From Natrarchaeobius halalkaliphilus (GTDB lineage Archaea; Halobacteriota; Halobacteria; Halobacteriales; Natrialbaceae): 64,000 nucleotides of DNA. Location of the stretch: NCBI RefSeq assembly GCF_003841485.1, contig NZ_REFY01000003.1, positions 434,001-498,000 on the forward strand, written 5' to 3'. Below the pieces are notes generated by a model. That model did not search any database. It was given only the letters and a program-made list of their open reading frames with translations, and had not been told where the DNA came from. A program made the position numbers and the translations under genes. This document shows, piece after piece, positions 1-10,860 of this stretch. Positions within the stretch are counted from its first letter, which is position 1, and every line of letters starts with the position of its first letter.

Positions 1-1514
1 ACGAGGTGTATCCGGCCGCGGACGGACGAGAATTCTCTTTCGACGACGGTGACGACCTGCCGGCGACCGTCGACGAGACGGAGAGACGAGAGGCGGAGCT
101 GTCGGCCGACGGCGGCGTCGTCGGAGAGGACGGACGGGAGACCGGACCTGACTGGAACTGGCGACTCGTCACGGAGGGACGGGACGTAATCGCCGCGAGC
201 AACGAACCGCATTCCGACGCCGAAACGGCCGAGGAGGCGATCGATCGGGTTCGAGAACAGGCGAGCGAGGCCGAACTCATCGAGTTCGAAAACGCGGCGT
301 TTCAGGTCTACGAGGCGGACTCCGGCGAGTGGCGCTGGCGGCTCATCGACGAAGACGGGAACGTCCTCGCAGACAGCGGCGCAGAACACACCTCCCGAAA
401 CGAAGCTGCCGAAGCGATGATGACGCTGAAAGAACAGGCCCCCGAGGCCGAACTGCTCGAGATCGAAACCGCCGCATTCGAGCTGTTCGTCGACGAGGAC
501 GACGAGTGGGGCTGGCGGCTCATCGACGAGGGCGGCAAGCTCGTCGCCGAAGATCCAGCGACTCATCCGACCCGAGAAGCTGCCAAAGCGGCGATGGATC
601 GCGTGCTCGAGCACCTCGAGTCGGACGTTCGAACGATGCACGAGGCTATCTTCCAGCCGTACGCGGCCGAAGACTGGCACTGGCGGTTCGTTCTGCCAAG
701 CGGCGAAATCGTCGCCGTCGACGGTCAGGAACACCCGACGCGAGACGATCTCGTCGAACGGCTCGAAGCCGTTCGTGATGCGGCCGCGTCGGGACACCGA
801 TACACGATCGGTGACGTGACCGTCCAGCTCTACGGGACCGATGACTGGCAGTTCCGGTTGTTGAATCGAGATCGAGAGACGATCGCGGACTCGACCGTGT
901 CCTATACCAGCCAGAGTGAGGGACGCGCAGTCGTCGAGACGATAACCGACCACGCGACCGACGCTCCGATATTCGCGATCGAGGACGCTGTCGTCCGTCT
1001 CGAGAGCGACGGTGGATGGCAGTGGAGTCTGATCGACTACGAACGAGACGTGATCGGTTCGTCGGTCGACCCGGCGGCTGACAAATCGGCGCTGAAATCG
1101 GAAGTCGAAACCGTCCGTCGGCTCGCACCGCTGGCCGGTCGGGTCGACTTCGACGTCGCGTCGTTCGAACTCGTCACCGACGAGGACGACCGCTGGCGGT
1201 GGCGACTCCTCGACGAGGACGGCCGCACCGTCGCGATCAGCTCCGAGACGTTCGACTCGATCGAGGTCGGCCGGGAAGCACTCGAGGGGGTCCGTGAACT
1301 GATCGACGCGGCGAGTATCCTCGAGATCGACAGCGTCTCCTTCGAGTTACACGCGGCCGAAGACGACGATGGCTGGGTGTGGCAACTGGTCGATGAGTAC
1401 GGAACCACGATGGCCGAGAGCACGCGGGTGTACGACACACGAACGGCCGCTCGCGAGGCCATGAACAACGTGAAGGCTCAGGCACCTGGGGGATGGATCA
1501 CATTCACTGACTGA
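1..1514 (+). CDS. DUF1508-type repeat protein, 5' end outside the window
   Basis: The reading frame is open to the left edge, and the residues before the first possible start (GTG at 6) continue a repeat unit, so the true start lies upstream. About 500 residues are visible. They hold eight units of 50-60 residues, each opening with an aromatic pair (WNWRLV, WRWRLID, WGWRLID, WHWRFV, WQFRLL, WQWSLI, WRWRLLD, WVWQLVD), followed by a D/E-G turn, an alpha-helix rich in Ala/Glu and an F-x-[LVI] strand. This is the pattern of the small YegP/DUF1508 fold, normally present in one or two copies. The protein is very acidic, with no signal peptide or membrane segment in the visible part. Function is unknown; a binding or scaffold role is only a guess. 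The gene ends 137 bases before the chosen start of the next one. Confidence 0.8.
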   Translation, partial: EVYPAADGREFSFDDGDDLPATVDETERREAELSADGGVVGEDGRETGPDWNWRLVTEGRDVIAASNEPHSDAETAEEAIDRVREQASEAELIEFENAAFQVYEADSGEWRWRLIDEDGNVLADSGAEHTSRNEAAEAMMTLKEQAPEAELLEIETAAFELFVDEDDEWGWRLIDEGGKLVAEDPATHPTREAAKAAMDRVLEHLESDVRTMHEAIFQPYAAEDWHWRFVLPSGEIVAVDGQEHPTRDDLVERLEAVRDAAASGHRYTIGDVTVQLYGTDDWQFRLLNRDRETIADSTVSYTSQSEGRAVVETITDHATDAPIFAIEDAVVRLESDGGWQWSLIDYERDVIGSSVDPAADKSALKSEVETVRRLAPLAGRVDFDVASFELVTDEDDRWRWRLLDEDGRTVAISSETFDSIEVGREALEGVRELIDAASILEIDSVSFELHAAEDDDGWVWQLVDEYGTTMAESTRVYDTRTAAREAMNNVKAQAPGGWITFTD

Positions 1515-2572: not shown

Positions 2573-2767
2573 ATGTCTCGAGTAGTCCTCCGAACGGTCG
2601 ACTCGGCAATCAGCGCGGAACGCACCGACGCGTTCGTCACGAACCAGCCCAGCCGGACTCTCGGTCGGGTCCGATCGAAGGAGTCGTCCCCGGGACGGGC
2701 GTCGCTCCGTTCGGTTGACTTGGAACCGGGTTGGGGGTCGATCGTGACTGTGGAGGGGATAAACTGA
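2573..2767 (+). CDS. possible small leader ORF (64 codons) before the Ntn hydrolase
   Basis: An ATG at 2573 lies about 31 bases after a TATA-like GGTTTATC (2538-2545), as for a leaderless transcript. The frame runs 64 codons and its TGA overlaps the ATG of the next gene by one base (TGATG). No family is recognised. Composition is not strikingly acidic, so it may simply be a 5' leader. It is listed because the coupling geometry is suggestive. Confidence 0.25.
   Translation: MSRVVLRTVDSAISAERTDAFVTNQPSRTLGRVRSKESSPGRASLRSVDLEPGWGSIVTVEGIN
2752..2758 (+). promoter_or_regulatory. Shine-Dalgarno site of the Ntn hydrolase gene
   Basis: GGAGGGG eight bases before the ATG at 2767. It fixes that ATG as the start, which puts a cysteine directly after the initiator methionine, rather than the in-frame GTG at 2731. 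Confidence 0.6.
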
Positions 2768-3756
2768 TGTGTACTCGTCTGGTCTATCTCGGTCCCGAAA
2801 ACCGCGTTCTCACGGCTCGATCGATGGACTGGAAGGAAGATATCGGGACGAACATCTGGGTGCTTCCTCGCGGTGTCGAACGCGACGGCGAGGTCGACTC
2901 GAACTCGATGACCTGGACGTCCGAGTACGGAAGCGTGATCGCGACCGCTTACGACATCGCCACCACCGACGGCATGAACGAAGCCGGTCTGGCGGCCAAC
3001 CTGTTGTGGCTGTCCGAGTCGGAGTATCCCGAACGGGGCGGCGAAACGCCGGCAATGTCGATCTCGCTGTGGACTCAGTATATGCTCGACAGGTTCGCCA
3101 CGGTTGCCGAGGTCGTCGCACACATCCGTCGAGAGGACGTTACGGTCGTAACCGAGCAGGTGCCGGGTGACGATCGTCTGGCGACGGTCCACCTCTCCCT
3201 GTCGGATGCCACGGGCGACAGCGCGATCCTGGAGTATATCGACGGCGAACTCGTCGTTCACCACGATCGTGACTTTCAGGTGATGACAAACTCTCCCACG
3301 TTCGACAAGCAACTTGCACTGGCCGAGTACTGGGAGGAGATCGGCGGCACGGTTATGTTACCGGGGACGAACCGGCCGGCCGACCGGTTTGCGAGGGCGA
3401 GTTTTTACGTCGACGCGATACCACAGGTCGAGGATCGTCGAACAGCGACCGCCGGCGTATTCGGCGTGATTCGGAACGTCTCCGTTCCACACGGCATCAC
3501 CACGCCCGACGCACCGCACATCTCTTCGACGCGTTGGCGATCCGTCGCAGACCACAAAGACCGCATCTACTACTTCGAGTCGGCGCTCGCCCCGAACGCA
3601 TTCTGGGTGGAACTCGACGAGCTCGACTTTTCGGTCGGTTCCGAGACTCGAGCGCTCGATCTCGGACCCGATCAGTCCACCGTCTACGCCGGGGACGTTT
3701 CCGACCAGCTACAGATCACGGATCCGTTCTCGTTTCTCGGAGCAGCCACCGGATAG
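2767..3756 (+). CDS. linear amide C-N hydrolase, choloylglycine hydrolase / penicillin V acylase family (Ntn hydrolase)
   Basis: Predicted to cleave linear amides, in the family of bile-salt hydrolases, penicillin V acylases and N-acyl-homoserine-lactone acylases. With the start at 2767 the protein begins MCTR, so removal of Met exposes Cys as the N-terminal nucleophile. Other family marks are the R-x-MDW segment (TARSMDWKED), DGMNEAGLAANLLWL, a GD-SAILEYIDG strand, and MTNSPTF carrying the conserved Asn. At 329 residues it is a normal length. There is no signal peptide and bacterial secretion features are absent, so it is probably cytosolic. The substrate cannot be told; quorum-signal or N-acyl amino acid cleavage is speculation. 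A good Shine-Dalgarno site precedes it. It is flanked by a palindromic element and by an extracellular beta-helix gene. Confidence 0.85.
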   Translation: MCTRLVYLGPENRVLTARSMDWKEDIGTNIWVLPRGVERDGEVDSNSMTWTSEYGSVIATAYDIATTDGMNEAGLAANLLWLSESEYPERGGETPAMSISLWTQYMLDRFATVAEVVAHIRREDVTVVTEQVPGDDRLATVHLSLSDATGDSAILEYIDGELVVHHDRDFQVMTNSPTFDKQLALAEYWEEIGGTVMLPGTNRPADRFARASFYVDAIPQVEDRRTATAGVFGVIRNVSVPHGITTPDAPHISSTRWRSVADHKDRIYYFESALAPNAFWVELDELDFSVGSETRALDLGPDQSTVYAGDVSDQLQITDPFSFLGAATG

Positions 3757-4099: not shown

Positions 4100-6217
4100 A
4101 TGTCAGGAACGACAGCAACGCATCTCGTGTTCTTCATCATCCTCCTGGTCGCCTCGTCAGCGTTTGCGCTGACGCTCGTCGGCCACACTCACGTGGTCAG
4201 CGACGCAATCGACGGATACGGATCGACGACGGTGGACGAAATCGAGACCGAGATCGCCGTGATCAGCGATCCCGAGAGTCACGCAACAATCTACGATCCG
4301 CGGGACGAAGACGATCAGGTGAGCGTTCTCGTTTCGAATATCGGTGATAGTTCGATCCCGCTCGGCGGAAACGATGTCGGAATCGTGATCGACGGCGAGT
4401 ACGTTTCCGATCCACACGTCGAAATCCTCGAGGATCCGTCGGCGTCGGTCTGGCAACCGGAGTCGACCGCACGGATCAGCTTCGATCGGGAGCTGGATCC
4501 GGGAGCCCACCGGCTGGTCGTCAGCGTCGCTTCGAACGAGGACGTCCTCGAGTTCGAGGTTCCGGAAATCGGTGATCCTGCGGCGGTGTCCTACGAGGCC
4601 GAGCCGGACAACGAGACGGTCGACGACGGCGAGACGATCGCGTACGAGGTGACGATCGAGGACGGGTTCGGTGATCCCGTCGGAGAAGACGTCGAGGTGG
4701 AAGCCGACGCGACGGACGGGTTCGACGTCGAGATCAACGGAGACGGGGACGTGACGACCGAACTGACCGATGCCGACGGAAAGGTGACGCTCGACGTGAG
4801 CTCCGATACGACGCAGGACGACGTCGACGTCGTATTCACCGAACTGGTGAACGGGAATTCGGCCACCGGGAACGCCACCTGGGAGGGCGAACAGGAGGAC
4901 GGCTCGCTCTCGGGAATCGTCTCGACGGAGACGGAAGACGGTGATGACGAGGATCTCGAAGGCGAAACCGTGACCATCGAGAACAGTCCGGAGCAGACGG
5001 CCACGGTCGACGCCGACGGCAGCTACGAGTTCGACGACGTCGACGGCGGAGAGTATACCCTCTGGATCGACGCCGACGGCCACCGGTACTACGAGACGAC
5101 GGTCATCGTCGACGGCTCGACGACGCACGACGTTCCGCTTCTCGGGAACGTCGAGAACGTCGACGCGGAGACGAGTTATCGGTCACTCGACGCGGCTGCT
5201 GACGACGTGGCCGACGAGGAGACACTCGAGCTCGCTGAAACGACGTACGATGCCTCCGAGGGCGGGTCCTCGGCGGTCGACGTCACCGCCTCGAACGTCA
5301 CGGTTCGGTCGCTCGGAACTCGCGAGGAAACCGTCCTCGACGCTGGCGGCGCGGACGTCGGCCTCTCGGTGAGGGGAGAAGGAGGTACGGTCGACGGGCT
5401 CACACTTACGAACGTGGATCCGTCCGGCACCGGGATCGAACTCGCGTCCGCGCCCGGTGCGACGCTCGAGAACGTCGACGTCAGTGAGACGGGGGTCGGA
5501 ATAGCCGTCGACGGATCCGACGCCGTCCAACTGACGAAGCTCGAGGCAACCGGAAACGACGATGTCGGCGTCCGCGTATCGGACAGCGACGAGATCGAAC
5601 TCGAGGACGTATACCTCACCGGAAACGGTGACGGGATTCGGATCTCCGAGAACACGATATTCACGCTCCGGCACAGCACCGTCTCGAACAACGTGGGAGA
5701 TGGTGTATCAGTTACTGACAGTACGGATCTCACCCTCAGTGATACCGTCGTTTCCGACAACGGCGGAGACGGATTGCGGATATTCGACGGCACCTCGATT
5801 TCCGTCGACTACACCCGCTTTGCGGATAACGGCGTGGACGGAATCCACCTGAGAGACACGAATAACGTCGATATCGTCTACGTCGAGTTACTCGAGAACG
5901 AACGCAACGGAGCGCTCGTTCAGGCGGACGAAGCGGTCATCGATCCGAGCGAGAACTATTTCCGCATCTGGTACAGTAACGTCGTCGACAACGGCGAGCA
6001 CGGGATGTGGGCCGAGGACAGCGAGAAACCCGACGGCGGAAACGGCGATCTCGGTGATGGTGAACTCCGGGTCGACGACGAGAAAATAACCGGCGAAGAA
6101 AACTGGTGGGGTGACGAAGACGGTCCCGAAGCGGCCGGGGCAAACGGCGTGAGTGATGAAACCATCCGGTTCGAGCCCGTCTCCGAAGGCGAACACGGAC
6201 AGGCCGGACCCCGGTAA
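4100..6217 (+). CDS. ArlG/FlaG-like N-terminus fused to Ig-like, carboxypeptidase-regulatory-like and right-handed beta-helix domains
   Basis: A 705-residue surface protein. Residues 1-35 form one hydrophobic membrane segment (HLVFFIILLVASSAFALTL), followed by DEIETEIAVISDP and a beta-sandwich with SNIGDSSIPLGGNDVGIVID up to about 155. This resembles haloarchaeal ArlG/ArlF (FlaG/FlaF), the stator proteins of the archaellum. Next come an Ig-like domain (about 160-270), a carboxypeptidase-regulatory-like fold (DGSYEFDDVDGGEYTLW, about 275-350), and from about 360 to 640 a right-handed parallel beta-helix with repeated N-x-V-S-D-[NS]-G-x-D-G turns. The C-terminal tail has ENWWGDEDGP, often seen at the end of such helices. 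It is strongly acidic. It probably sits in the membrane with the body in the S-layer space and binds or processes glycan. No archaellum genes are nearby. Confidence 0.7.
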   Translation: MSGTTATHLVFFIILLVASSAFALTLVGHTHVVSDAIDGYGSTTVDEIETEIAVISDPESHATIYDPRDEDDQVSVLVSNIGDSSIPLGGNDVGIVIDGEYVSDPHVEILEDPSASVWQPESTARISFDRELDPGAHRLVVSVASNEDVLEFEVPEIGDPAAVSYEAEPDNETVDDGETIAYEVTIEDGFGDPVGEDVEVEADATDGFDVEINGDGDVTTELTDADGKVTLDVSSDTTQDDVDVVFTELVNGNSATGNATWEGEQEDGSLSGIVSTETEDGDDEDLEGETVTIENSPEQTATVDADGSYEFDDVDGGEYTLWIDADGHRYYETTVIVDGSTTHDVPLLGNVENVDAETSYRSLDAAADDVADEETLELAETTYDASEGGSSAVDVTASNVTVRSLGTREETVLDAGGADVGLSVRGEGGTVDGLTLTNVDPSGTGIELASAPGATLENVDVSETGVGIAVDGSDAVQLTKLEATGNDDVGVRVSDSDEIELEDVYLTGNGDGIRISENTIFTLRHSTVSNNVGDGVSVTDSTDLTLSDTVVSDNGGDGLRIFDGTSISVDYTRFADNGVDGIHLRDTNNVDIVYVELLENERNGALVQADEAVIDPSENYFRIWYSNVVDNGEHGMWAEDSEKPDGGNGDLGDGELRVDDEKITGEENWWGDEDGPEAAGANGVSDETIRFEPVSEGEHGQAGPR

Positions 6218-9674: not shown

Positions 9675-10760
9675 TCAGTCCGTCGGGGTTTCTTCGGGTC
9701 TCACGCCCGGCTCTCGATCGCGATCCCGAAGCGCCCGGCGATGGCCGTAAACGCCGCGTGCGAGCGCGCCGAGACCGAGCAGGAGGACGATCAGGTTGAT
9801 CGGGGTCCCGAGATAGGGAATCTGAACGACGGCGGCTCCGGCGACCAATCCCACAACGAGCGCGATCCATCGGTTTCCCACGCCGACGGCCGAGAGGAGC
9901 CACGCCGCGACGGCGAATCGGCCGTAGATGATCGCGATCCAGATCGCCAGTGCGAACGCGAACCCGCCGACGAACGAGAGCGGAATCCCGACGACAGTGA
10001 TCGCGAGCGCGATCAACAGGATCGGCACGCCGACGAGCACGCCGAGTCCGACGAGCCCCGTTCGGACCGGATCGGTCGCGACGCTCGCGGAAACGCCAGC
10101 GGAGAATCGCGGAAACAGTGCGAGCAACGCGGCACCGATCAGCAGGTTCAACGCGAGGACGTACAGCGAGAACACCCACGATACGATCGGATCGAGCGTC
10201 GGGGCGAACTCGCCGCCGAGCGAGGAATCGTGACGAATGTCGCCCGCGACGGCACCCGTGTTCCCGACGAGATCGCCGCCGTAGCGCAGATCGCCGGCGA
10301 TTGCGGCCTCGTCTCCGAGTCTGATCGTGTCCGCCCCGATGGCCACGTCGCCGTCGACGACGCCGTCGACGGTCGCGCTTCCGGCACCGGCCGAGAGGTC
10401 CCCACCGACGGTCGCACCGTCCGTGATCTCGAGGCTACCGGAGGCGGCCTGAACGTCGCCGTCGACGGTGCCGGCGATCGTGACGCTTCCGCCGGCTGCC
10501 TCGACGTCCCCGCCCACGTCGCCGTGGATGCGAATATCGCCCGCAGCGGCGCTGACGTCGCCGGTAACCGTTCCCTCGACGACGACCGTTCCCGCGAACG
10601 CCTCGAGGCTGTCGACCGTTTCTCCCTCGGAAACGGTGACGGTACCGCCGACCTGCGAACTCGACTGGGCGGCGGCCGTCGCCGGCACCGTCGCACAGAG
10701 AACGACGGCGAGGGCGACGAGGACGACGACTCGTCTCCGGAGTGTGGACCGTTCGGGCAT
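9675..10760 (-). CDS. exported bactofilin-like (polymer-forming) membrane protein
   Basis: 361 residues. A signal peptide (basic RRR, then [21 protein letters not shown]) is followed by a beta-solenoid of about 140 residues built from 17-20-residue turns of the form G-D-V-x-A-x-x-G-x-[IV]-x-[IV], as in bactofilins/DUF583. After it come about five membrane helices from residue 180 on ([20 protein letters not shown], then [20 protein letters not shown] and others) and a charged tail. The solenoid is thus outside the cell, unlike cytoplasmic bactofilins. The ATG at 10760 is preferred over 10787 because a TAGCTTTTT element lies 26-36 bases upstream. Function unknown; a surface scaffold is plausible. 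Confidence 0.75.
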
Positions 10761-10860
10761 GCGGACTCGTACCACACGGAGTCGCAAAAAGCTATCAGTG
10801 ATGTCTCAGTATCGTCGACTGGCCCGCCGGATCGAGATCGGCCACACCGCGCTTCGGTCG

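Follow-up and report, generated by a model that had tools for sequence, protein, structure and literature searches.

A gene of Natrarchaeobius halalkaliphilus was found to encode a paralog of the archaellum stator protein ArlG (FlaG) that carries a long C-terminal chain with a right-handed β-helix. ArlG is viewed as a dedicated motor part, and the presence of other surface domains on spare ArlG copies in related archaea suggests that it has found a second use, keeping surface proteins in place in the cell envelope. The reading favoured here, to which we give an even chance, is that ligand-binding domains, exchangeable between proteins, are displayed in the envelope on an ArlG-derived membrane anchor, which probably acts together with archaella. 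Among the papers listed by literature searches, none describes extended ArlG paralogs, as judged by titles and the openings of abstracts.

Domain organization and ArlG identity of the fusion protein

The window, the whole stretch of DNA analysed here, comprises 64,000 nucleotides (contig C3, 434001-498000) of a 3.51 Mb genome. The ArlG/β-helix fusion that an earlier note had reported in it is real, and its open reading frame, with an ATG start, is organized as follows.

4100..6217, + strand: whole gene, stop included, an ArlG-paralog/β-helix fusion of 705 aa, 62 and 64% identical to its orthologs L041 and L060
4109..4216, + strand: N-terminal membrane helix, residues 4-39 (model helix 4-39; hydropathy)
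4235..4564, + strand: ArlG-type β-sandwich, residues 46-155 (NF052591 over residues 1-152; pLDDT; VIA-align Z 10.0-11.0 to solved FlaF/FlaG)
4565..4885, + strand: second β-sandwich, Big_1/invasin-like, residues 156-262 (model strands 160-248; Big_1 in orthologs only)
4886..5149, + strand: CarboxypepD_reg-like domain, residues 263-350 (PF13620, residues 280-345)
5150..6019, + strand: right-handed β-helix, residues 351-640 (PF13229; VIA-align)
6020..6214, + strand: C-terminal acidic tail with a conserved NWWG-EDGP motif, residues 641-705 (ortholog alignment; pLDDT; hydropathy)

The strongest 19-residue hydropathy window begins at residue 9 (value 2.74), and hydropathy gave no second membrane segment (maximum past residue 60, 0.71). 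The full-length model (mean pLDDT 77.5, pTM 0.51) consists, in order, of the helix, the ArlG sandwich, a second sandwich, a third β domain and the right-handed β-helix, with the last 60 residues unreliable (pLDDT < 50 for 646-705). In Pfam searches, the C-terminal part matched PF13229 Beta_helix (98.8 bits) and NosD (69.3 bits), and PF13620 CarboxypepD_reg scored 31.8 bits (E 1.8e-7), slightly below its cut-off of 32.3. The Ig-like domain (156-262) had no Pfam match at E ≤ 1 in the window protein; Big_1 was matched at the equivalent domain of both orthologs (E 7e-5 and 6e-5, under cut-off). The long C-terminal chain described in the earlier note is borne out as a β-sandwich, a CarboxypepD_reg-like domain and a β-helix following the ArlG domain.

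The N-terminal 160 residues matched the NCBIfam ArlG model NF052591 with 116.7 bits (E 8.5e-34) over its entire length (model 1-148 of 148, protein residues 1-152), and the whole protein scored 111.3 bits, against cut-offs of 110 bits each for ArlG and ArlF. ArlF (FlaF, PDB 4P94) shares the fold (Z 11.0), but its model gave only 44.3 bits at the N-terminus of the window protein, below that cut-off. The stretch IETEIAVISDPES lined up with the I-D-T-D-I-x-I-I-S-D-P of ordinary ArlGs. A model of residues 1-155 reached a mean pLDDT of 82.7, with block means of 88-95 once past residue 70, and its first-ranked Foldseek match was 5tuh_B, the Sulfolobus ArlG (E 3.7e-4). VIA-align placed FlaF/FlaG at ranks 1-5 (Z 10.0-11.0) ahead of the next row at 9.7, a clear order with a small margin. 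Against PDB sequences, phmmer with the N-terminal domain returned no match at E ≤ 10, and profile searches recovered archaellins and, weakly, FlaG (E 0.0095 and 0.039). A first scan of genome contigs with this domain gave no confirmed relative. The NF052591 score over cut-off across the whole model, the FlaF/FlaG top fold matches and the aligned IETEIAVISDPES stretch assign the N-terminus to the ArlG family, as the earlier note had proposed; it is not a generic secreted domain, as the refuting case named in that note would have had it. A chance resemblance to such a domain was ruled out by the NF052591 score and the structural ranking. The window protein is like ArlG (NF052591, PDB 5TUH) in its full-length model match, N-terminal membrane helix and β-sandwich.

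The N-terminal part also matched PF01917 Arch_flagellin (44.6 bits, cut-off 29.5). This archaellin superfamily match, together with the large adhesin-type domains added, could indicate an exported pilin-like tip adhesin on an archaellum or pilus. Such a role is highly improbable: an NCBIfam search of the window protein at E ≤ 1 reported no archaellin/pilin N-terminal signal domain (TIGR02537), unlike that of the genome's archaellin (41.3 bits), and the window domain is nearer to ArlG than to archaellins. The pilus-like protein suggested in the earlier note has weak support.

Genomic setting and phylogeny

The genome's ordinary ArlG (162 aa, 154.7 bits) belongs to an arl cluster that lies apart from the fusion, on contig C7, the kind of cluster that the earlier note had proposed to look for. 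ArlI, ArlH and ArlJ over their cut-offs, an ArlF-like protein (102.4 bits, below 110) and archaellins are also encoded there. The genome holds two ArlCE-type matches, and its four PF01917 matches at E ≤ 0.001 are two archaellins, ArlG and the fusion. The fusion gene has housekeeping surroundings, with neighbours encoding a 4-phosphopantoate--beta-alanine ligase, a choloylglycine-hydrolase-like protein and a tyrosine--tRNA ligase. The second of these (window 2731-3756) is a choloylglycine-hydrolase/penicillin-amidase-like protein in a haloarchaeon, scoring under the family cut-offs. A long acidic protein with repeated W-R/W-x-L units, DUF1508-like by eye, begins before the window (window 6-1514) and is kept beside the fusion locus in congeners. 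The membrane protein encoded on the minus strand at window 9675-10787 contains repeated V-x-G-D/I-x-G-x-V units and resembles, by eye, a bactofilin-type polymer-forming domain.

A phylogenetic tree was built from 118 ArlG domains (matches of at least 100 bits from the fetched loci, after removal of duplicates, of ArlF-like rows and of the broken copy in G117); the loci had been picked for second copies, and proportions in this set are not rates. The 76 ordinary ArlGs, which extend 2-10 residues past the domain, lay on one side of a branch with support 98/85, and the window protein, longer by about 550 residues and encoded outside the arl cluster, lay outside it. Because a 162-aa ArlG is present in the separate arl cluster, and given this tree position, the fusion is not the genome's archaellum stator ArlG; it is a paralog, not an ortholog. 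A recent copy of the genome's own ArlG was likewise rejected (37% identity, separate clade). Its exclusion from the 76-ArlG clade, its distance from the arl genes and the retention of a true ArlG leave tentative the earlier suggestion that the protein could sit at the archaellum stator and dock to the S-layer.

Four lineages (A-D) were located outside the ordinary clade. Lineage A (3 rows, support 100/99) represents the window genus. Lineage B comprises 28 rows of the host family, recurrently near NOG1 and DUF389 genes. In 22 of them the domain is followed by 83-1135 residues, and in the other 6 by just 3; scanned tails contained Laminin_G_3 (L033, L034, L043), CARDB (L034), a PQQ_2 propeller (L035) and, below cut-off, Big_1/Big_2 (L048). 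Lineage C (3 rows of f12) carries FG-GAP-like propellers, and in all three genomes an archaellin gene follows the fusion gene directly on the same strand, and the ordinary ArlG is ~6-7 kb away from the fusion. Lineage D has 8 rows of f12, of which 2 are extended. The branch joining A and C to the ordinary ArlGs is weak (90/53), so the relations among the lineages are tentative.

The architecture that the earlier note had asked after in other genomes recurs in two congeners, the orthologs listed above, so that three of the four genomes of the genus carry the β-helix fusion. The dN/dS between congeners was ~0.3 (NG86), a sign of purifying selection that speaks for a protein in use. In G039 a break in the frame falls inside the membrane helix (L060:8112-8189), through either gene decay or an assembly error, and in G040 the flanking genes are in place and the fusion is absent; together these two genomes indicate that the gene is dispensable.

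In published models, ArlG forms a filament across the pseudoperiplasm, held to the S-layer by an ArlF/ArlG tetramer, and ArlF takes an S-layer-side position (PMC8978795). According to PMC8667602, ArlG subunits touch one another through Saci Y68 of the first and V84/F86 of the second. When the window protein was aligned by profile to the FlaG chain, with an inferred numbering offset of 16 that is consistent with Y56, Y68 and V84, these positions fell at L77, V93 and I95, all hydrophobic. The three lineage A proteins have L, V and I/V there, types also present in ordinary ArlGs, and the equivalent of residue 77 itself varies among the 76 ordinary haloarchaeal ArlGs (L 42, H 20, Y 14). By residue type, then, the contact surface is not obviously lost. 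This, the ArlG-type sandwich and the S-layer anchoring by ArlF plus ArlG (PMC8978795) would be compatible with an alternative stator part that enters the ArlG filament or cap and grips the S-layer through its long C-terminus, in place of ArlF or in addition to it. We regard this as quite unlikely: the window genome retains ArlG and an ArlF-like gene, S-layer binding is the role of ArlF whereas the domain scores as ArlG, and the differing domains of the other lineages are unlike one S-layer ligand.

Association with archaellum genes

ArlG was matched in 87 of 125 family genomes at E ≤ 1e-4 and in 84 of 125 over cut-off, and 32 of 125 contained a second or orphan ArlG-like gene, a count that leaves out G036 with its two ordinary-looking matches. 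Among these second copies, 28/32 exceed the NF052591 cut-off; although they pass an NCBIfam 'equivalog' threshold they are not arl-cluster ArlGs, which is a warning for annotation. With PF04659 (ArlCE, present in 83/125 family genomes) as the archaellum marker, second or orphan copies occurred in 29/83 genomes with the marker and 3/42 without it (Fisher p 0.0004, a test in which related genomes of one genus count as independent). When stratified by genus (g8, g15, g24 and g28), the exact test gave p 0.004, and p 0.0016 with the broken G117 copy scored as absent; these four genera were judged informative, with three tested first, g28 added and the genus membership of G115 and G116 inferred. Genus g15 alone gave p 0.08. 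Of the three copies in arl-less genomes, the one in G114 is intact, that in G052 has an 83-residue tail that reads as a lost stop, and that in G117 is interrupted by a frameshift and an in-frame stop. The G117 orphan (L156, G117:C1:249120-249559) looks as if it were decaying after archaellum loss. The co-occurrence, with decay in two of the three arl-less copies, favours a function tied to archaella.

It is possible, at well under even confidence, that the ArlG domain now serves only to anchor a general surface adhesin or polysaccharide-active protein in the membrane and to space it out, free of any archaellum link. The orphan location of the fusion gene, its exclusion from the ordinary ArlG clade, the intact G114 copy in a genome without an arl marker and the position of lineage B amid conserved NOG1 and DUF389 genes all agree with this. 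So does the biology of the host genus, which grows on insoluble chitin; a table with merged columns in PMC12343721 appears to list N. chitinivorans and N. halalkaliphilus as motile rods when grown on sugars and as non-motile cocci when grown on chitin. However, the association with archaellum genes, which holds within genera too, the decay of two of three copies in arl-less genomes and the adjacency of lineage C to archaellin genes point the other way.

The β-helix and a proposed display of exchangeable domains

Structurally, the β-helix was nearest to alginate epimerases (VIA-align AlgE6 Z 33.5, AlgE4 Z 33.2), NosD (Z 30.9), polysaccharide lyases, phage tailspikes and the adhesin PfbA (Z 28.0). 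No match was obtained by phmmer against PDB sequences at E ≤ 0.01, and NosD_copper_fam (TIGR04247) gave 31.6 bits, far below its cut-off of 300. DPH is the catalytic motif type of the AlgE/AlgG alginate epimerases. The fold is shared with AlgE-type mannuronan epimerases, but the β-helix part has no DPH motif, the sole DPH of the protein being at residue 104 inside the ArlG domain, and epimerase activity was rejected. Glycan binding, one of the functions raised in the earlier note, would fit the modelled fold. PfbA of Streptococcus pneumoniae (PDB 4MR0) is likewise a surface-displayed β-helix protein; it has no ArlG-type module, and its anchoring differs from that of the window protein.

In the favoured reading of archaellum-linked display, the N-terminal helix, for which NCBIfam gave no archaellin-type signal domain, would anchor the protein in the membrane, with the ArlG β-sandwich as a base in the pseudoperiplasm and the two middle β domains as a stalk. 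The β-helix head would be presented at the S-layer or close to it, its most likely ligand there being a polysaccharide or a glycan of the envelope. The ArlG module probably keeps ArlG-type contacts, in which case the displayed domain would sit near archaella. Spare ArlG copies in several haloarchaeal lineages would similarly have become display bases with β-helix, LamG, β-propeller or Ig-like domains, and no other argument for display is as strong as this exchange of heads from lineage to lineage. The reading is favoured by the ArlG score and fold, the C-terminal domains of the four lineages, which differ or are missing, the position of lineage C beside archaellin, the co-occurrence, the interface residue types, the dN/dS of ~0.3 and the likeness of the β-helix to polysaccharide epimerases and lyases, to tailspikes and to PfbA. 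It is weakened by the distance of the fusion from arl, the intact G114 copy without an arl marker, the dispensability of the gene and the orphan copies without extension (6/8 in lineage D, 6/28 in lineage B).

A bolder version, which we consider doubtful, is that haloarchaea repeatedly made the stator protein into a modular docking system: ArlG-type subunits would join the periplasmic scaffold of the motor and carry interchangeable lectin, propeller, Ig or β-helix domains through the S-layer, turning the motor base into a site for sensing or gripping a substrate, here a polysaccharide such as chitin. If an ArlG-derived family with swapped surface domains is confirmed, stator subunits would have left the motor and been reused. 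Such reuse would add to an earlier event argued for in PMC8667602, in which archaellins were duplicated to give ArlF and ArlG.

Extended forms were seen only in Halobacteriales among the sampled genomes, since 294 sampled genomes from elsewhere in the phylum gave no ArlG match at E < 1e-20 in an open frame > 230 aa. Within the order, at least 17 of 392 genomes outside the family had two ArlG matches at E ≤ 1e-16; those among the matches listed comprised 11 of f12 and 6 of f4. The six f4 genomes (genus g55) contain two adjacent ArlG genes, both over cut-off, beside an ArlF-like match (L107:6708-7754, L108:6379-7375, L115:6771-7827), and this tandem pair might form a stator of two ArlG types.
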